Assembly (NCBI GenBank): GCA_947491305.1
Contig: CANLIL010000025.1
Location: 1-37,592, forward strand
Reading direction: 5' to 3'
Source: Flavobacteriales bacterium
Lineage (GTDB): Bacteria; Bacteroidota; Bacteroidia; Flavobacteriales_D; Crocinitomicaceae
DNA: 37,592 bases
Shown here in pieces: positions 1 through 6,202 of this stretch (positions within the stretch are counted from its first letter, which is position 1; each line of letters begins with the position of its first letter). The position numbers and the translations under genes were made by a program. The notes beneath the pieces are model-generated. The model saw nothing but the letters and a program-made list of their open reading frames with translations. It did no database searches and was not told the origin of the DNA.

Positions 1-128
1 ATTCAGATGATGCCTCTTACATTTCAGAAATGACATCAGTGTATTTAATTTGGTCAGATGATTCAATTTTAGGTACAGATTTTTCAAGTTTAGGTGCTGG
101 CTATGCTGTTAGGTGTGTTAAGAAATAG
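1..128 (+). CDS. FISUMP-domain secreted protein, C-terminal end only
   Basis: The open frame enters from the left edge and stops at TAG 126-128. About 41 residues remain. They end in GYAVRCVKK, the typical tail of the Fibrobacter succinogenes major paralogous (FISUMP) domain, in which an aromatic/Trp strand (here VYLIWSDD) is followed by a closing VRC(V/I)K motif. The complete gene at 626-1285 ends the same way (SVRCIKE), so the two are paralogues. FISUMP proteins are secreted or surface-located; their molecular role is not established. The last 8 bases of this gene lie inside the 115-base direct repeat, so its stop codon sits at a duplication junction. The protein start lies outside the window. 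Confidence 0.7.
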   Translation, partial: SDDASYISEMTSVYLIWSDDSILGTDFSSLGAGYAVRCVKK

Positions 129-235
129 TGTTCTCTAAATTAGAAAAGTAAAGCATAATTATTTTAAAGTTATAATAAATGAAAAAATTATTAGTGGTTT
201 TAATAATAGCATTTAGCGGAGTATTAAATGCACAA
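121..235 (+). repeat. 115-base direct repeat, copy 1 (upstream region plus signal peptide)
   Basis: Positions 121-235 and 568-682 are identical except for one base (A206 versus G653, which changes Ile to Val at residue 10 of the following protein). The unit holds the whole region ahead of the gene, the start codon and the 19-residue signal peptide of the following gene. Similarity stops exactly at the end of the signal peptide, and the mature parts are unrelated. The near-identity in A+T-rich intergenic DNA points to a recent duplication or gene conversion. Confidence 0.95.
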
Positions 236-598
236 GATATCGTAAATAATTTTATATTAAATGAACAGTTTAATACATTAACAATTGCATCAAAAAATAA
301 CATTGCTTTAAGTTATGATAGTTTAATTACAGATGATAGTGAATTATTTGTTGATTCATTAATTGATATTAAATATGAGCCAGCTTTAAATTCTAAATAT
401 AGTATCAGCGTATATTATATTGATAATGGTGTCGTAAGTGTTGCAGTATTAAATAATGAAGCATTTAGACCTGAAAATTTTGATCAAACAGCAAGAAATA
501 ATTCTTTTTACACAACACTGAATAATATTGAATCAGCTTTTTTAAAAGGTGTTTTGTTAGATGAAATAGAAATAGTGTTCTCTAAATTAGAAAAGTAA
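179..598 (+). CDS. Small secreted protein of unknown function
   Basis: This is a 139-residue protein with a clear signal peptide: basic MKK, a hydrophobic core at about 4-14, and a small-residue cleavage site before Gln19. The mature part of about 120 residues is acidic, rich in Asn, Asp, Ser and Leu, and likely to be mostly beta strand; I do not recognise its family. The signal peptide and upstream region are shared almost base for base with the FISUMP gene at 626. Its last nine codons (ending FSKLEK) lie inside the second copy of the repeat. The same bases occur after the stop codon of the upstream FISUMP fragment, so this family's native 3' end appears to have been copied there. The mature sequence is not obviously FISUMP. 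Confidence 0.7.
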   Translation: MKKLLVVLIIAFSGVLNAQDIVNNFILNEQFNTLTIASKNNIALSYDSLITDDSELFVDSLIDIKYEPALNSKYSISVYYIDNGVVSVAVLNNEAFRPENFDQTARNNSFYTTLNNIESAFLKGVLLDEIEIVFSKLEK

Positions 599-682
599 AG
601 CATAATTATTTTAAAGTTATAATAAATGAAAAAATTATTAGTGGTTTTAATAGTAGCATTTAGCGGAGTATTAAATGCACAA
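568..682 (+). repeat. 115-base direct repeat, copy 2 (upstream region plus signal peptide)
   Basis: This is the second copy of the unit at 121-235, offset by 447 bases, with one mismatch at 653. Its left 31 bases encode the C-terminus of the 179-598 protein. Its right 57 bases encode the signal peptide of the 626-1285 protein. The base just outside each left end differs (A120 versus T567), so the boundary is sharp. Confidence 0.95.
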
Positions 683-1285
683 CCATATATTAATGTAGCT
701 GGTCAAACATGGATGAAATATGATTTAAAAGTTTTCACTTTTCAAAATGGAGATTCAATATATATTGCTAAATCAAATGAAGATTGGTTAAACGCTACAG
801 CCATTGAGAAACCTGCTTTGTGTATTGAATATGGTGGTTTTTTCTATAATCATTATGCCGTTTCTGATAAGAGAGGCTTAGCGCCTAAAGGTTATCGAAT
901 TCCAACTAAAAAAGATGTTGAAATATTAACAAATAAACTTGGTGGTCTTGATAAAGCAGGTTTGTTTCTACAATATCAAGAGCCATATGAGATGTATCCT
1001 AATGGTTTTGGAGATTCAACAGTTGGTTTTAATGTAAATGGTAATGGGCATAGAGGAGGAATTGGTTCGTATTGGTCTATGCAAAATCCTAGAGGAGATT
1101 ATTGGTTGTTAGATGAAATAATAAAAGATCCTGCTGAATTTAAAAATGTCGTTGTTGATTCAGAAATCAAAGACAAATTACATCTTCAAGCATATTATTT
1201 TAGTGTTTATTTTTATGAAGCAGAAATGTTTATATGGGATGAACAAAAAGGGTGCGGGATGTCTGTGCGTTGTATTAAAGAATAA
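626..1285 (+). CDS. FISUMP-domain secreted protein
   Basis: The protein is 219 residues long with a 19-residue signal peptide shared with the gene at 179. The mature part is a FISUMP (Fibrobacter succinogenes major paralogous) domain. It begins with a GQTWMKYDL strand, continues with YNHYAVSDKRGLAPKGYRIP (the counterpart of the family's YNWYAV...CPxGWHVPT motif), then an SYWSMQ strand, and closes with SVRCIKE. Such domains are common in secreted and surface proteins of Bacteroidota and Fibrobacter, and no enzymatic activity is established. The downstream gene starts 3 bases after the stop, so this gene probably leads the operon that runs to 4440. The promoter is probably inside the duplicated unit at 568-625, although I see no clean -7 match there. 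Confidence 0.8.
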   Translation: MKKLLVVLIVAFSGVLNAQPYINVAGQTWMKYDLKVFTFQNGDSIYIAKSNEDWLNATAIEKPALCIEYGGFFYNHYAVSDKRGLAPKGYRIPTKKDVEILTNKLGGLDKAGLFLQYQEPYEMYPNGFGDSTVGFNVNGNGHRGGIGSYWSMQNPRGDYWLLDEIIKDPAEFKNVVVDSEIKDKLHLQAYYFSVYFYEAEMFIWDEQKGCGMSVRCIKE

Positions 1286-1288
1286 AAT

Positions 1289-1993
1289 ATGATTAAGAAT
1301 AAGGACAAAAAAATTGATTTTGCTGACAAATTTTTAAAAGAATTTGTTGACAATGGTTTTGGAGTTTTAAGCAAAAGAGAAACCGAATTACTTGTTTTTC
1401 ATTTACTGTCTGATTTGGCAGAGCTTGATTCAAAGTCTAACTATGAACTAGCATTAACATTGAAAATTACCCCAACTAAAGTTAAGAATTATAGATTTGA
1501 AAGGAGATTAAGGTACAGTCAGTTAACAGATGAACAAATTAAAAAAGCATTCATCGAAGGATTAAGAAAGTCAAATATTAAAATCAATAAATCATCTAAA
1601 TTTATACTCTTATCTATCGAGGATTCATACATTAGAGAAGCAATTAAGGCAAAAATGAAGAAACTCAATCATTTTTCCGATAGTTCTTTTAATTCTGAAA
1701 TTATTAGCCTTGATTTTGATGCTTTTTCTGAATTAATGAGTTATTATTATAATGACTGTAAAATTAATGAGGTTTTAGATGATAACATATTAAAACACTT
1801 AAAAGAGTTATTAAATAAAGATGAAGACCAAATCACTTTCAAAAGTATAACAAAAGCGTTCCTTGAAGGAGTAGCGCAAAAGGCAGGTGAAGGAACGTTT
1901 AGCGCAGGACTTTCATTTTTAACTGGCGGAGTTTCAGATATTAAATTACTTTTTAATATACTTAAGAATCACATCTCAAAAAAGAATATTTAA
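1289..1993 (+). CDS. Helix-turn-helix-like protein of unknown function
   Basis: This 234-residue protein has no signal peptide and is rich in Lys, Leu and Ile, so it is probably cytoplasmic. Residues about 27-75 look like a helical DNA-binding fold: LSKRETELLVFHLL, then a helix ending ELALTLKITPTKVKNYRFE, which resembles the turn and recognition helix of a helix-turn-helix domain, followed by a basic RRLRY patch. The middle is helical. The C-terminus carries a Gly/Ala-rich stretch, EGTFSAGLSFLTGGVSD, that could be a loop or membrane-associating segment. I do not recognise the family. It sits 3 bases after the FISUMP gene and 18 bases before the first GldM-like gene, so it may regulate, or act with, that set. 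Confidence 0.6.
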   Translation: MIKNKDKKIDFADKFLKEFVDNGFGVLSKRETELLVFHLLSDLAELDSKSNYELALTLKITPTKVKNYRFERRLRYSQLTDEQIKKAFIEGLRKSNIKINKSSKFILLSIEDSYIREAIKAKMKKLNHFSDSSFNSEIISLDFDAFSELMSYYYNDCKINEVLDDNILKHLKELLNKDEDQITFKSITKAFLEGVAQKAGEGTFSAGLSFLTGGVSDIKLLFNILKNHISKKNI

Positions 1994-2011
1994 TTATTAA
2001 TCAAAAATAAA

Positions 2012-2635
2012 ATGATGAGAAAAATAAAGTTTACACTTATAATATTGTTTTTTATTACAAGTTCACTTGGTTTCAGCCAAACAGATATGGCAGTTATCTC
2101 ACTTAGTGATCAAAACATGTTATATACTTTATATCCCAATGAAGTTATAATAGGAAATAATGGAGGTTATAAAGATTATAAAATCAGTTCTGATAATATT
2201 AAAATAACAAAAGTTAAAGGAACAGTTAATTCATATCTTTTGGAGTGCGAAATCGAAGGAAATCAACAACTTTATTTTATCGATAAAGCTACGAAAGACA
2301 CATTTGATATAATAACCTATCGTTTTGAGCCAATGCCTCTCCCTGAGTTATATTATGATTTTAGAAGAAATGGTGAAAAAATCAATTATAGTTATTCAGT
2401 TAATTTAAGAGTTAATTATAACGAAAGCATCCCACTTATCGCAAAATTTGACATTATTGATTGGGAAATTAGTATTCCTGAGAGCCCTACAATAATAAAA
2501 GGTAATGGATTTCAATTGAACGACTCAGCAACATCTTTTATAAAAAACGCACCGGTTGGATCAGATATAATAATTCGCTGTACCTATTCATATAAAGGGA
2601 AATTAAATAAAACATCGTCAATATTTAAATTATGA
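2012..2635 (+). CDS. Secreted protein resembling the C-terminal domains of GldM
   Basis: The protein has 207 residues and a signal peptide (hydrophobic core about 6-20, ending GFSQ). The mature part follows the order of the two last periplasmic domains of GldM. An opening strand, LYTLYPNEVIIGN, corresponds to the YRGxxNP-type start. A domain boundary, YRFEPMPLPELYY, matches the F-x-I-x-x-(I/M)P-x-P linker. The last domain has a GNGFQLNDSA turn, VGSDIIIRCTYSYKG, and a final SSIFKL strand. GldM C-terminal domains project through the periplasm and contact GldK/GldN in the type IX secretion and gliding motor. Here they stand alone without the transmembrane and first domains. Its stop overlaps the next start by 4 bases (ATGA). 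The assignment rests on motif order, not a search. Confidence 0.55.
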   Translation: MMRKIKFTLIILFFITSSLGFSQTDMAVISLSDQNMLYTLYPNEVIIGNNGGYKDYKISSDNIKITKVKGTVNSYLLECEIEGNQQLYFIDKATKDTFDIITYRFEPMPLPELYYDFRRNGEKINYSYSVNLRVNYNESIPLIAKFDIIDWEISIPESPTIIKGNGFQLNDSATSFIKNAPVGSDIIIRCTYSYKGKLNKTSSIFKL

Positions 2636-3228
2636 TAAAAGTTATTACAACACTATTATTAATTACTTCTGCAAAAGTATTGTTTGCTCAAGGAATTGTT
2701 CAGAATCAGTTAAGCATTTTATATAGAGGTTTTGAAAATAAAGTAGAATTAGGTTCTGTTAATGGTGACTCTACATTAAGACTAGCGGGTGAAGATGTGA
2801 TAATTGAAAAAAAATTCAATCATTGGATAGTTAAGCCAGTTCAAGGATACAAAAGGGCTACTTTATTTGCGCTCAATAAATCCGGAGACACCTTAAATAA
2901 AACCGTGTTTACAATCAGATCACTTCCTAAATTAACATTATACATCGGTAGATTTGAATCTGGTGAAAAAATCACAAATTTTCAAGAACGAAAATTAATG
3001 GTAAAGATGCCATTTCAATGTATGATTCAACCCGAAACAAAAATCAATAACTGGAAAATAGAAATTGAAGGAGAGGAATTAATTTCTGGAAATGGAGATT
3101 TTTTGTTTGAGGATGCAATATCAAAATTAACTAATTTGAAAATAGACACTGTGATTACTATCACATGTAATTATTCTATCAATGAAGAATTGAAAACAAT
3201 ATCTGGAGTGTTTAAATTAAATCTATAA
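2632..3228 (+). CDS. Secreted protein resembling the C-terminal domains of GldM
   Basis: This 198-residue protein has a signal peptide ending VLFAQ at residue 20. It is the clearer of the two GldM-like genes. It starts with SILYRGFENKVELGSVNG, the counterpart of the YRGxxNP opening of the third GldM domain. It then shows the linker VFTIRSLPKL, a strand-rich last domain with a SGNGDFLFEDA turn, DTVITITCNYSI, and a final strand, SGVFKLNL. In both this and the preceding gene the linker, the GNG turn and the final F-K-L strand fall at matching positions, so they are paralogues. GldM is normally one polypeptide of about 500 residues; here the C-terminal half is encoded separately and twice. The next gene starts 3 bases after the stop. 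Confidence 0.6.
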   Translation: MIKVITTLLLITSAKVLFAQGIVQNQLSILYRGFENKVELGSVNGDSTLRLAGEDVIIEKKFNHWIVKPVQGYKRATLFALNKSGDTLNKTVFTIRSLPKLTLYIGRFESGEKITNFQERKLMVKMPFQCMIQPETKINNWKIEIEGEELISGNGDFLFEDAISKLTNLKIDTVITITCNYSINEELKTISGVFKLNL

Positions 3229-3231
3229 ACT

Positions 3232-4440
3232 ATGAAAAAAACAATTAACATTTTAAGTATTTCATCCTTAATAATCGCCTTTTTATTCAAGACTTTGTCT
3301 TGGCCATTTAGTGATTATTTATTTTTAATTTCATTGGGAATTTTACTTCCATTAAATTACTTAGTAGAATTAATAGAAAGTTGGAAAAATAAGGAACATA
3401 AATTAGTTGCTATCTTTTATTTTTTATCCGTATTTTTCTTTTTAGAAGCAACTATTTTTAAATTACTCTATTGGCCTTCAGATTTATTTTTTTACGGTAG
3501 TATTTTATTTTTAACTGCTTATTTTATTACGAAAGGCATCGTTTCTTACAAACAAAACAAACATCAGATTTATTTCAGTCTATTCTTCCTGCCTTTTATT
3601 GTATATCAAATGTTAAGTATAAATTATGTTTTAACAACTAACAGCATGTTGATTGTAGGATATTTGGGCTTAACAATTGCTACAATTATTGCTTTTCGTT
3701 TTTATAATAAAACAGGGAAAATAATTCTTGAATTAAACACCAAAAAAAGTATAACTATTTTACTGGTTTTAGTGTTAGTATTAATTGCAAAATTTCAATT
3801 CAGTGTTCCAAAATCCGTAGTTGCTAATCAAATTGAAGCTATTGCATTATTACAAGAGGAAAACGATTTGGAAAAAAGAACTGGTGATTACTATGCGAAA
3901 TCATTGAATAATTCACAATCAAAAAAGATAGACTTAGAAACTGCAAAAATTCTAGCTGAAATAGAAAATTTGAAATTTGAGTTACTCAAATTAGGTGAAG
4001 CTGACTTAAACGGTTTGAAGTTATATGTATATAATAATCAAGTTCCTACAAAAAACAAAAATGTTGATTCTATCAACCTAATTAAACTTGACTTATTAGA
4101 GATTAATAATAAGTTTGATTTTTTCATCTCTTATCATCACATGATAAATAATAGAAAAGGAAATATGATTAAGAATAAAGCCATTTCTTATCTTGAATCT
4201 TTAATTAATCATTTTGACACTGAATTATTGAACAAGGAAAATCCTATCGTTTTGGTTTTGAATGATAAAATAAATCAAATGAGTAATTCATCATCAAACA
4301 AATATGATGAGAATTCGTGGGAATTTAGATTATTCGCAAGTTCTACTTTAATTCAAGCGATTAATAATTTAACACAACTACAAAATGACATTCTTTATTA
4401 TAGAACATTAGCGTTGTGTGAATTATTAAGAAATAAATAA
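3232..4440 (+). CDS. Membrane protein combining GldL-like hairpins with a GldM N-terminal-like domain
   Basis: The protein is 402 residues. Seven hydrophobic segments lie at about 6-25, 28-47, 58-80, 85-104, 114-132, 137-157 and 173-190, followed by a soluble helical domain of about 210 residues. The first two hairpins each contain the same motif, LFKTLSWP at 18-25 and IFKLLYWP at 75-82. This resembles the LFKIxHWP motif of GldL, the membrane partner of GldM. Glu72 sits inside the third segment. Segment seven plus what follows resembles the single GldM helix and its first periplasmic domain. Residues 363-397 (WEFRLF, then LTQLQNDI, then ALCELL) match the GldM pattern of W...F...P...L-x-K-x-Q-x-D-I...E. 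Known GldL and GldM are separate proteins, so this would be a fused and extended version. It is the last gene of the operon. Confidence 0.55.
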   Translation: MKKTINILSISSLIIAFLFKTLSWPFSDYLFLISLGILLPLNYLVELIESWKNKEHKLVAIFYFLSVFFFLEATIFKLLYWPSDLFFYGSILFLTAYFITKGIVSYKQNKHQIYFSLFFLPFIVYQMLSINYVLTTNSMLIVGYLGLTIATIIAFRFYNKTGKIILELNTKKSITILLVLVLVLIAKFQFSVPKSVVANQIEAIALLQEENDLEKRTGDYYAKSLNNSQSKKIDLETAKILAEIENLKFELLKLGEADLNGLKLYVYNNQVPTKNKNVDSINLIKLDLLEINNKFDFFISYHHMINNRKGNMIKNKAISYLESLINHFDTELLNKENPIVLVLNDKINQMSNSSSNKYDENSWEFRLFASSTLIQAINNLTQLQNDILYYRTLALCELLRNK

Positions 4441-4476
4441 TAAAATTTATAATAACCAAACCCATCACCACCTACC

Positions 4477-4501
4477 ACCCCAAGCTAGTCTTGGGGTTTT
4501 A
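4477..4501 (+). terminator. Rho-independent terminator of the GldM-like operon
   Basis: The perfect 7-base stem CCCCAAG (4478-4484) / CTTGGGG (4490-4496), extendable by one A-T pair, has a 5-base loop and is followed by TTTT. It lies 37 bases after the last gene of the operon and just before the convergent bestrophin gene. The opposite strand has no T run, so it works mainly in the + direction. Confidence 0.8.
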
Positions 4502-4504
4502 CAT

Positions 4505-5371
4505 TTACCCTAATACTTCCTCCATGTTTTTCGTAATTGTTTCGCACAATTGGTCGGTAGGAAGGTCGTTGTCGTCAGCGCCAAACGGATCTTCAATTTC
4601 TTCTGCCAAGACTTCCATGCTTACCAAAATGTAGAAAACAAAGGTGGCAATCAAAGCGGAGAAATAACCAAATTGCATCACAAAAGCTAGGGGCAAGGTG
4701 GTTACGTAGATCAAAATGAATTTTTTGATAAATAAACTATACGATAAGGGAATGGGCGTGTTTTTGATGCGCTCACACGCGCCAACGCATTCCATGAATT
4801 GGTTTAAGTTTTGATCCATCAAAAGCACATCGGTAGATGTTAATTGACCTTTTTGTTTAATGAATTGCAATTGATCGTATAGTAAACCGCTTATTGCAAG
4901 TGGAATGTGTTCTTTTCCACTTAAATATTCGTGTTCAGCTTCGTTGAGGTTTAATTGGTCTAGTTGCACTCCTTTGCGTAAATGCTCTTTTGCCGCAAGC
5001 GCAAAATTGGGAATCATGCGCTTGAAGAACTCGCGGTCTTTTTCTAATGGTAATAAACTCGATAATTTTATAGCAAAATTACGCGTGTCATTGACTAAAC
5101 TGCCCCATTTATTCCTGCCTTCCCACCAGCGATCATAGGCTGTATTGGTTCTAAAAACTAACAACAAAGAAATCACAAAACCGATTAATGAATAGACTGC
5201 AAATAAATCTTTCAAGCCCGTTGCATCTGGAAACAATTGTAAAACGATAAATGCAATGACAAGCGTTAAAATCCCCATGTATAGGATTTCTTTGCGCAAC
5301 ATATGAAAGGTGTCACTTTTGTGAAATGCAAAAATTAGTTTGGCCCAGCTTTTTGGATTGTATTTGATCAT
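4505..5371 (-). CDS. Bestrophin-family (UPF0187) anion channel protein
   Basis: This is a bestrophin-like inner membrane channel of about 288 residues. It shows the family hallmark RTNTAYDRWWEGRNKWG after the second transmembrane helix, hydrophobic pairs near the start (YMGILTLVIAFIVLQLF, then YSLIGFVISLLLVF) and a second pair later (LIYVTTLPLAFVMQFG and ATFVFYILVSMEVLAEEIEDPFG). The last of these carries the conserved acidic E-D-P-F-G motif. Bacterial bestrophins are pentameric channels; some conduct anions and some cations. The frame stays open to 5437, but I chose the ATG at 5371 because MIKYNPKSWAKL aligns with normal family N-termini, while the 22 residues before it are proline/lysine-rich and atypical. 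Confidence 0.85.
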   Translation of the reverse strand: MIKYNPKSWAKLIFAFHKSDTFHMLRKEILYMGILTLVIAFIVLQLFPDATGLKDLFAVYSLIGFVISLLLVFRTNTAYDRWWEGRNKWGSLVNDTRNFAIKLSSLLPLEKDREFFKRMIPNFALAAKEHLRKGVQLDQLNLNEAEHEYLSGKEHIPLAISGLLYDQLQFIKQKGQLTSTDVLLMDQNLNQFMECVGACERIKNTPIPLSYSLFIKKFILIYVTTLPLAFVMQFGYFSALIATFVFYILVSMEVLAEEIEDPFGADDNDLPTDQLCETITKNMEEVLG

Positions 5372-5517
5372 AATTTTTTTTGGTAAAGGTAAGGGTTTTG
5401 CTTGACTTTTTACCTTCGGTGCTGCTTCGCGGTCCAAAGCAAAAAATAAGCAACTAAACGAAGTGACCTCACAAATTCCTTTAAAAAATAAACACTCATT
5501 TGTAAAAAGCTTTTTTC

Positions 5518-5603
5518 AAATTTTCCGAGGATTTTTTTCATTTCACTGCGTTGCATGAAAACCACCGATTGCACTTTGCTGCATGCTTTCCCCTGATCAG
5601 CAA
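5518..5603. repeat. Direct repeat about 86 bases, copy 1
   Basis: This copy aligns with 5654-5740 at an offset of 136 bases with only a handful of substitutions. It runs from AAATTTTCC through a GAAAACCACCGATT core to a GCTGCATGC...CCTGATCAGC end. Both copies are outside genes. Confidence 0.9.
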
Positions 5604-5610
5604 TCTCTTC

Positions 5611-5636
5611 TTACTTTTTCCAAAGCAAAAAAGTAA
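5611..5636. repeat. Perfect inverted repeat, 9-base stem
   Basis: TTACTTTTT (5611-5619) pairs with AAAAAGTAA (5628-5636) around an 8-base loop. It lies between the two direct repeats. There are no terminator features on either side beyond the stem itself, and no adjacent gene that it would clearly serve. Confidence 0.75.
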
Positions 5637-5653
5637 GCAAAAGTGCTTTTTTT

Positions 5654-5740
5654 AAATTTTCCAAGGATTTTTTTCATTACACTGCGTTACATGAAAACCA
5701 CCGATTCCGCTTTGCTGCATGCTTTCCCCTGATCAGCCAA
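5654..5740. repeat. Direct repeat about 86 bases, copy 2
   Basis: This is the second copy of the 5518-5603 unit, offset 136 bases, with scattered differences (for example GCGTTACATG where copy 1 has GCGTTGCATG) and one extra base near its right end. The divergence shows it is older than the 115-base repeat at 121/568. Confidence 0.9.
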
Positions 5741-5847
5741 TGCTCACGCATGGGCTTGGGCGCAATTCCGCAAGCGCAACGGCTAAATCTTGGAAAATTT
5801 AGAGGTTCCCGCGTTGGCGGGTTGAAAAAGTTGGTATGTAACGAAGA

Positions 5848-5932
5848 ACCCACTTCGGTCGAAGAACGTTTTAATAGCTCTAAAAACATTTTCTAACCGA
5901 AGAAAAATCTTTCTTCGCACGAAGTGAGTTTT
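5848..5932. repeat. Imperfect palindrome with about 22-base arms
   Basis: The arm 5848-5869 (AACCCACTTCGG...) is the reverse complement, with a few mismatches, of 5911-5932 (...CGAAGTGAGTT). Inside lies a smaller GTTTT/AAAAC pairing. It is intergenic and does not directly abut a gene, so a terminator role is unlikely. Confidence 0.65.
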
Positions 5933-5948
5933 AAAGAATCAACGCGAG

Positions 5949-6148
5949 ATCTTTGAAGCAACAGAGAAGTGAGGAATAGAAAAAAAGCAATTGTGTATCG
6001 TTGCACGATAGGCGCTTGCGTCTGTAAAACTTCTGCCAAAGTTTTTCAACTATTTTTCATAGTTGAAAATGACGCAGGAGGCTTTGCACCACTATCGTAG
6101 CAACGAAGCAATTGCGCTTTTTTCCCGAACGGCTTGTTGCTTCTTGAT
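5949..6148. repeat. Long imperfect palindrome of about 200 bases
   Basis: The centre is a perfect 11-base stem, TTTTCAACTAT (6043-6053) / ATAGTTGAAAA (6059-6069), with a 5-base loop. Moving outward, matched blocks continue at intervals: CGTTGC-ACGATAG against CTATCGTAGCAACG, AAAAAAGCAATTG against CAATTGCGCTTTTTT, and GAAGCAACA against TGTTGCTTC. The intervening bases do not pair. It could be a miniature inverted-repeat element or a REP-like intergenic element. I saw no terminal target-site duplication. Confidence 0.65.
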
Positions 6149-6202
6149 TTTTTGTTTCTTTTGTATCAAGACAAAAGATAAGAAATTTATTTTTTTCTTT
6201 TA

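Follow-up and report, generated by a model that had tools for sequence, protein, structure and literature searches.

The three adjacent genes ORF1, ORF2 and ORF3 (open reading frames, ORFs; Table 1) of contig CANLIL010000025.1 (assembly GCA_947491305.1, Flavobacteriales bacterium, Crocinitomicaceae) hold parts of GldL and GldM in a new arrangement. ORF1 and ORF2 are GldM tips (domains D3-D4), and ORF3 is, as judged from profiles and a predicted model, a chain of three GldL-type hairpins joined to a GldM D1-like domain. This anatomy, a split GldM together with a hairpin-D1 fusion, is unusual and can be regarded as nearly certain. In Bacteroidota, gliding and type IX secretion are powered by the motor proteins GldL and GldM, and GldM is described as a dimer of four-domain chains spanning the periplasm and driven by GldL. 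The most likely role of the three genes, with a probability of roughly one half, would be that of an envelope scaffold derived from GldM and not coupled to protons, with a tip of two proteins that docks on a partner of the GldN type, a function that we infer from sequence comparison. The window, meaning the whole stretch of DNA analysed, comprises 37,592 nucleotides, and to the right of about 6 kb it was covered by a listing of ORFs. The original prediction, made from the DNA letters, gave coordinates, lengths, a 4-base overlap of ORF1 and ORF2 and a 3-base spacing between ORF2 and ORF3, all of which were confirmed.

The GldM-type motif order read by the original prediction in two adjacent secreted proteins can be seen in both translations: LYRGFEN in ORF1 (a loose version of the first motif) and LYTLYPN in ORF2, followed by FTIRSLP and YRFEPMP respectively, with GNG in both and FKL at or close to the end of both. 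A profile of 582 positions, built from the 58 distinct full-length GldMs among the fetched loci, scores ORF1 at 87.9, ORF2 at 83.1 and ORF3 at 32.5 bits. Controls consisted of 900 shuffles, 3 reversals and the other window ORFs of at least 90 amino acids (aa); the best shuffle or reversal reached 4.6 bits and the best other ORF 2.2 bits. Chance likeness to GldM is ruled out by the shuffle controls. The matched positions, 400-576 for ORF1 and 395-580 for ORF2, correspond to D3-D4, and the same holds for all 25 stand-alone proteins aligned to GldM, the two of the window included. When 399 genomes of the order were searched with ORF2, matches were obtained in 158; among the best were the C-terminal halves of proteins of about 580 residues (expectation value, E, down to 1.2e-16), and a second set consisted of stand-alone proteins of about 200 residues. 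ORF1 is a paralogue of ORF2 (E 2.2e-10).

Sequence places both proteins in D3-D4, and for ORF2 the predicted fold does so as well. The ORF2 model, made from a seven-row alignment in which two rows are GldM C-terminal halves, has a predicted local distance difference test score (pLDDT) of 81. Its first seven Foldseek matches are PorM/GldM, with E from 5e-9 (7cmg) to 3e-7, and four PorM/GldM entries give VIA Z values of 12.5, 12.2, 11.8 and 11.1, the next row being 8.4. All fold evidence comes from this model, ORF1 being assigned by sequence. ORF2 (13.8 bits) and ORF3 (15.6 bits) stay below the TIGR03517 cut-off of 180 bits, and ORF1 has no match to this family at E up to 1.

Two turns of the FKxxHWP type that marks GldL hairpins are found in ORF3, FKTLSWP at residues 19-25 and FKLLYWP at residues 76-82. 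Three hairpins are present in its model, which has low confidence (8-row alignment, pLDDT 59) and places helices at residues 2-21/27-52, 57-78/84-104 and 110-130/137-161, then a seventh at 170-190, the rest being mostly helical. The first 12 Foldseek matches of this model are all PorM, GldM, PorLM or GldLM, each at E 0.016-0.57, and the list was counted only since all 12 belong to these proteins. Pfam GldM_1st matches ORF3 at E 2.2e-5 and 25 bits, exactly at its cut-off, and the GldM profile covers positions 84-186 plus 239-292. Among 99 genomes the best match of ORF3 is 27% identical. A two-row profile of ORF3 and this match detects full-length relatives in five genomes of one other genus (E 4.5e-92 or better, the profile's own second row included) and also picks up many true GldMs through their D1 region (E down to 5.5e-22). 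A profile of 11 relatives from which the window row was excluded scores ORF3 at 212 bits.

The likeness to GldL is more indirect. The 12-row ORF3 family profile matches the solved GldL 7sau_C at E 4e-8 and PorM at E 5e-5; it holds no true GldL or GldM rows, one row having been cut from a longer fusion that continues into a full GldM. One ORF3 relative falls just under the Pfam GldL_N cut-off (E 6e-5, 23.6 of 24 bits). ORF3 alone is not seen by the GldL profile (3.6 bits, below the best shuffle at 4.8), so its link to GldL comes through the profiles of its relatives. The claim of the original prediction that GldM parts are redistributed over three genes, the third combining GldL hairpins with a GldM D1-like domain, agrees with the profiles, with Pfam and with the ORF2 and ORF3 models. 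No chain carries the N-terminal helix followed by D1-D2-D3-D4: ORF1 and ORF2 are confined to GldM positions 395-580 and ORF3 to 84-292. D2 (positions ~293-394) is matched by none of the three proteins, and GldM_2nd gives no match at E up to 1.

The glutamate through which GldL couples protons was looked for in the hairpins. According to PMC8986121, E49 in transmembrane helix 2 (TM2) of Flavobacterium johnsoniae GldL is strictly conserved and needed for SprB secretion, and E59 is needed for SprB movement only, that is, for gliding and not for secretion. The TM2 glutamate is present in 36 of the 37 rows of the assembled GldL set. The remaining row, L008, comes from a hairpin protein of 177 aa, which scored above the limit for inclusion and is unlikely to be a true GldL. 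No acidic residue stands at this column in any examinable hairpin of ORF3 or of 11 relatives, one hairpin having a gap there. The third hairpin of ORF3 was aligned by the GldL profile, and the first two were read at +19 from the FK motif, where hairpin 1 has L (I, L, L around) and hairpin 2 has T (L, T, A around). As none of the hairpins examined carries the TM2 glutamate, a motor driven by protons is unlikely as far as sequence can tell.

The original prediction had suggested such a motor, in reduced form, acting on surface proteins. It would be in keeping with a chain that unites GldL-type hairpins with a GldM D1, and with three acidic residues of ORF3: E72 in helix three, and E46 and E49 where helix two ends. 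However, position 72 is acidic in only two of the six closest fusions (the window and L145) and is Q in the other four, and the nearest approach to the TM2 glutamate among the relatives is a glutamate two residues ahead of its place in L148. GldM R9, present in 58 of 58 true GldMs, has no counterpart in ORF3 that could be placed by eye. The neighbouring FISUMP protein, proposed as a substrate, is not a conserved neighbour, since no FISUMP gene was seen in the cassette at the same site of the closely related genome G025, and the substrate reading was dropped. This motor explanation is held to be quite improbable.

Because the genome retains normal gldK, gldL, gldM and gldN elsewhere, in one cluster on another contig (G000:C2; 556, 252, 195 and 168 bits, above the NCBIfam cut-offs), the three genes are an extra set. 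The cell's own gldN has the coordinates L064:7620-8636. The reported absence of gldK and gldN is correct for the window, where family scans find neither among the six genes of the run and hence no type IX secretion core operon, and incorrect for the genome. In view of this cluster, a stand-alone replacement for lost gldK and gldN is not supported.

The site of the three genes is variable. By blastn, DNA likeness to relatives starts at 4469/4470, about 29 bases past the ORF3 stop. At the same site in G016, the next gene encodes a 462 aa protein, 62% identical to the Kelch-type protein of G025, and neither a D3-D4 pair nor an ORF3-type gene is found there. In G025, four genes lie between the flanks, encoding a 228 aa protein (27% identical to the 234 aa protein of the window), two D3-D4 proteins (39% identical to ORF1 and 40% to ORF2) and, in place of ORF3, a 418 aa secreted protein that is GldN-like; no ORF3-type gene was seen in this cassette. 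In the window's own genome, the Kelch-type counterpart runs into the right-hand end of contig C29 and is truncated there; it shares 53% identity with the G016 and G025 proteins. Its position fits the same gene order provided that the contigs join, and the Kelch-type gene itself varies. In the tree, ORF1 groups as sister with the first D3-D4 gene of G025 (99/94) and ORF2 with the second (97/84); the pair is therefore old, and its third gene has been exchanged. That one site can hold either a hairpin gene or a GldN-like gene next to an orthologous pair suggests a modular system moving between genomes. The segment 179-4440 has a G+C content of 0.271, against 0.359 for the remainder of the window (1-kb windows: mean 0.359, standard deviation 0.025, lowest 0.303); this low value and the divergence from relatives suggest that the cassette was acquired from elsewhere.

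Similar parts recur in other genomes. At least one stand-alone D3-D4 gene of less than 300 aa is present in 37 loci (the window, L096-L113, L146, L149, L219, L226, L228, L229, L236, L237, L245-L253 and L257), which were chosen by interest, through short-frame hits or interesting neighbours, include some near copies and are not a random sample; since many contigs end close to the genes, absences among them are weak. The D3-D4 gene of L110 is counted although broken by a stop codon, L182 is excluded as the same place as L149 (CALQIX020000030.1), and stand-alone D3-D4 genes found in the class-wide search are to be read as "at least". Two or more D3-D4 units stand side by side in 18/37 loci (one of the units in L099, and likewise in L226, forms the start of a longer protein), a GldN-like gene occurs in 12/37, the window not among them, and a hairpin gene in 5/37 (the window, L146, L149, L251 and L252). 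The last five are proposed as a kind of their own, an operon of a hairpin protein with D3-D4 genes. A tandem of four D3-D4 genes was also observed (L250:5815-8593), as were GldM D3-D4 heads joined to MORN repeats (L254:6352-7656, L255:5569-6906).

As to the linkage of the three genes, the exact trio was seen in the window only, and a hairpin gene beside D3-D4 genes recurs elsewhere. In genome G156 (L149), a hairpin-D1 fusion that scores 305 bits over GldM positions 18-298 stands first, then a GldN-like gene headed by a D3-D4 unit, then two D3-D4 genes; in G200 (L146), the fusion continues to GldM position 571 (18-571). The D1 of these two fusions is sister to the GldM of G200 itself (100/100) and apart from ORF3, which lies on a long branch beside other long branches and is placed unsurely. 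Since their D1 groups with the GldM of G200 and not with ORF3, the L146/L149 fusion probably arose independently of ORF3. The two D3-D4 genes of G156 and G200 form a clade of their own (100/100).

The ORF1-ORF2 pair is conserved more widely than its link to ORF3. It might work by itself, as a soluble tip that competes with GldM or tunes it on the resident GldKN ring or track, with ORF3 as a separate regulator or sensor. The orthologous pair of G025 stands without any ORF3-type gene seen, 32 of the 37 D3-D4 loci lack a hairpin gene, and most hairpin proteins occur without D3-D4 genes, many of them beside PadR-type genes; among the 53 loci found through the hairpin-D1 chain, only L182 has stand-alone D3-D4 genes. 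Against this stand the start of ORF3 only 3 bases after ORF2 and the renewed meeting of hairpin and D3-D4 genes in L146, L149, L251 and L252, in the first two probably by way of a separate fusion. A modest chance, well short of even, is given to a pair acting alone. Another two-gene arrangement, frequent in the genus, was noted in the own genome (L054:5726-7196, contig C31) and in many relatives: a short gene, which we take to be PadR-like, is followed by a protein with an extra head and GldL-type hairpins, sometimes with a GldM_1st match. In L142:4270-5253, a lipoprotein with GldM_2nd above the cut-off (26.5 bits) lies two genes ahead of an ORF3 relative and is another displaced GldM domain.

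The third gene of related cassettes indicates a possible partner of the D3-D4 tip. Five such proteins (418, 367, 656, 725 and 729 aa) are related: when seven proteins were compared, the one of 656 aa matched its four relatives at E 1.2e-11 to 1.3e-17. Their five-row profile matches a canonical GldN at E 5.7e-7. The family includes the proteins of L096:4864-6120 and L149:7432-9609. On the basis of this profile match, the family is described as GldN-like and is not called GldN; three of its proteins give no match to TIGR03523 at E up to 0.1. In PMC5790014, D4 of Porphyromonas gingivalis PorM is reported to suffice for PorN binding, while PorK binding requires D2-D3 and D4. The binding of PorN by D4 alone, together with the GldN-like genes that share a locus with D3-D4 genes in 12/37, supports a two-chain tip docking on a GldN-type partner. 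The 18/37 loci with at least two D3-D4 units together are what would be expected if two chains replace a homodimer.

Taken together, the three genes would be an acquired accessory set built of GldL and GldM parts. ORF3 would be a single inner-membrane chain in which three GldL-type hairpins are fused to a GldM-like helix and D1, and would serve as the membrane anchor of the tip. ORF1 and ORF2 would be exported to the periplasm, where together they would replace the D3-D4 tip of a GldM dimer, one chain each, and bind a partner of the GldN type, which may be the resident GldN of the cell or a protein carried by related cassettes. Having lost the glutamate by which GldL couples protons, the set would not convert protons into movement itself; it may serve passively as a scaffold, transmit a signal, or modulate the type IX/gliding machine already present in the cell. 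In this scheme, the acquisition, the pairing of ORF1 with ORF2, the contacts with ORF3 and GldN, and the role itself are presumed.

Several observations weigh against the scaffold. ORF3 lacks a D2 that could connect D1 with D3, and it has E46 and E49 close to where GldL carries E59. A single instance of the exact trio was encountered, and the D3-D4 pair of G025 does without ORF3. The choice of the 37 loci by interest and the contigs that end close to genes reduce the force of the counts. Comparison of the third-gene family with GldN by hhalign gives 25%, and 20% after nine added rows (controls 0.1-1.7%). Moreover, the five-row profile finds no GldN-like gene in the own genome at E up to 0.001, where canonical GldN alone is known.

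The set could also be a free-standing envelope signalling or conflict system that borrows GldLM parts. Such a use is suggested by two operons from other, distant families of the class (G551, L251:1-11999; G649, L252:3159-9901), in which a hairpin protein and D3-D4 lipoproteins (two and one, respectively) lie between an nSTAND1 ATPase (E 2e-30 / 2e-38) and SpoIIE phosphatases (E 5e-19 / 6e-22). GldM_3rd and GldM_4th are above their cut-offs in both, L251 also has a D2-D3 lipoprotein, and these operons are likely an envelope signalling system. The site in the window is variable and low in GC, and relatives of its 234 aa protein stand beside genes that are presumably nuclease-like (L243) and restriction-like (L244). 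However, no ATPase, phosphatase or known defence gene was seen in the six-gene run, whose proteins match no PADLOC model of anti-phage defence at E up to 1; ten proteins of four other loci gave TPR matches and one weak MukB-like match only in the same scan. For the window, a signalling or conflict system has a small chance.

On a broader and more tentative view, GldL hairpins and GldM domains may serve as a construction kit whose pieces Bacteroidota have repeatedly separated and recombined to make envelope machines that are not motors. The scaffold proposed for the window would then be a very compact version on an exchangeable cassette, with GldL3-GldM(D1) as an anchor of one chain and a D3-D4 tip of two. 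It would relay force or a signal between the inner membrane and rings of the GldN type and would itself consume no protons, and the nSTAND1-hairpin-D3D4-SpoIIE operons would be a signalling branch. Whatever its role, a natural two-protein tip and a base fused to glutamate-less hairpins show which parts of GldM and GldL can exist apart. They are ready-made constructs for asking what the GldM tip binds, whether dimer symmetry is needed, and which motor-free uses the GldL/GldM scaffold has.

As listed in Table 1, the three genes end a run of six co-directional genes spanning 179-4440, with intergenic gaps of 27, 3, 18, -4 and 3 bases. The family of the 234 aa protein is present in 8 of 240 genomes of the bacterial family; its relatives in L239 and L240 stand ahead of secreted proteins of some 1450 aa, and the one in L241 ahead of a secreted protein that runs off the contig. 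A local duplication is suggested by a 115-base direct repeat (121-235 / 568-682, 99%) and by the signal peptide that the genes of 139 aa and 219 aa have in common, and the left edge of the window (1-128) bears the tail of an apparent further FISUMP-like protein. To the right of the flank gene, which we take to be bestrophin-like, lies an intergenic repeat (5504-6185). The own genome has five matches to it, counting the repeat itself, and in G025 and G016 several copies surround the corresponding site.

Table 1. Genes of the six-gene run and features of its right edge (positions in the window)
Feature	Position	Strand	Remarks
Gene 1 of run	179..598	+	139 aa secreted protein; no family match above cut-off
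FISUMP-domain secreted protein (219 aa)	626..1285	+	Pfam Fib_succ_major E 6.5e-23; 3 bases before the 234 aa gene
234 aa protein, no obvious signal peptide	1289..1993	+	18 bases before ORF1; counterpart at the same place in G025, 27% identity
ORF1, 207 aa	2012..2635	+	Signal peptide (by eye) and GldM D3-D4-like domain pair
ORF2, 198 aa	2632..3228	+	Signal peptide (by eye) and GldM D3-D4-like domain pair
ORF3, 402 aa	3232..4440	+	Three predicted GldL-type hairpins, seventh helix and GldM D1-like domain
Terminator-like hairpin after ORF3	4477..4497	+	Pattern scan of 1-4600: 2 found, 1.1 expected from shuffles
Right-edge flank gene, conserved neighbour	4505..5371	-	98% / 97% identical matches in G025 / G016

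In the literature searched, which included the parts consulted of PMC8986121, PMC9389320, PMC12635249 and PMC5790014 and had subscription papers and preprints outside its scope, no description of a split GldM or a GldL-GldM fusion was found, nor any paper on GldM and SpoIIE together. PMC5790014 mentions extra porM orthologues in the F. johnsoniae genome, which are not described as split in the part consulted. Compared to GldM/PorM (TIGR03517; PDB 6ey4, 6ey5, 6ey6, 7cmg), the window is similar in the D3-D4 sequence of ORF1 and ORF2, the fold of ORF2 and the D1-like domain of ORF3; however, the known protein is one four-domain chain, whereas the window has three proteins with D3-D4 twice and no D2 found, far below the TIGR03517 cut-off. 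GldN/PorN (TIGR03523) bears a distant likeness to the third gene of related cassettes, and the run in the window is without such a gene. The L149 (G156) and L146 (G200) operon is similar in having hairpins and GldM in one chain beside two secreted D3-D4 proteins; it differs in its additional GldN-like gene, in a fusion D1 that is sister to its lineage's own GldM and, in G200, in retaining the rest of GldM. GldL/PorL (TIGR03513, Pfam GldL_N; PDB 7sau, 7sat) shares the hairpins with the FKxLxWP turn, but ORF3 has three hairpins per chain and a fused GldM D1-like domain, and the coupling glutamate was not found in it. While the GldL/GldM motor is built in a ratio of 5:2, the three hairpins per D1 predicted in the single chain of ORF3 would give another ratio.

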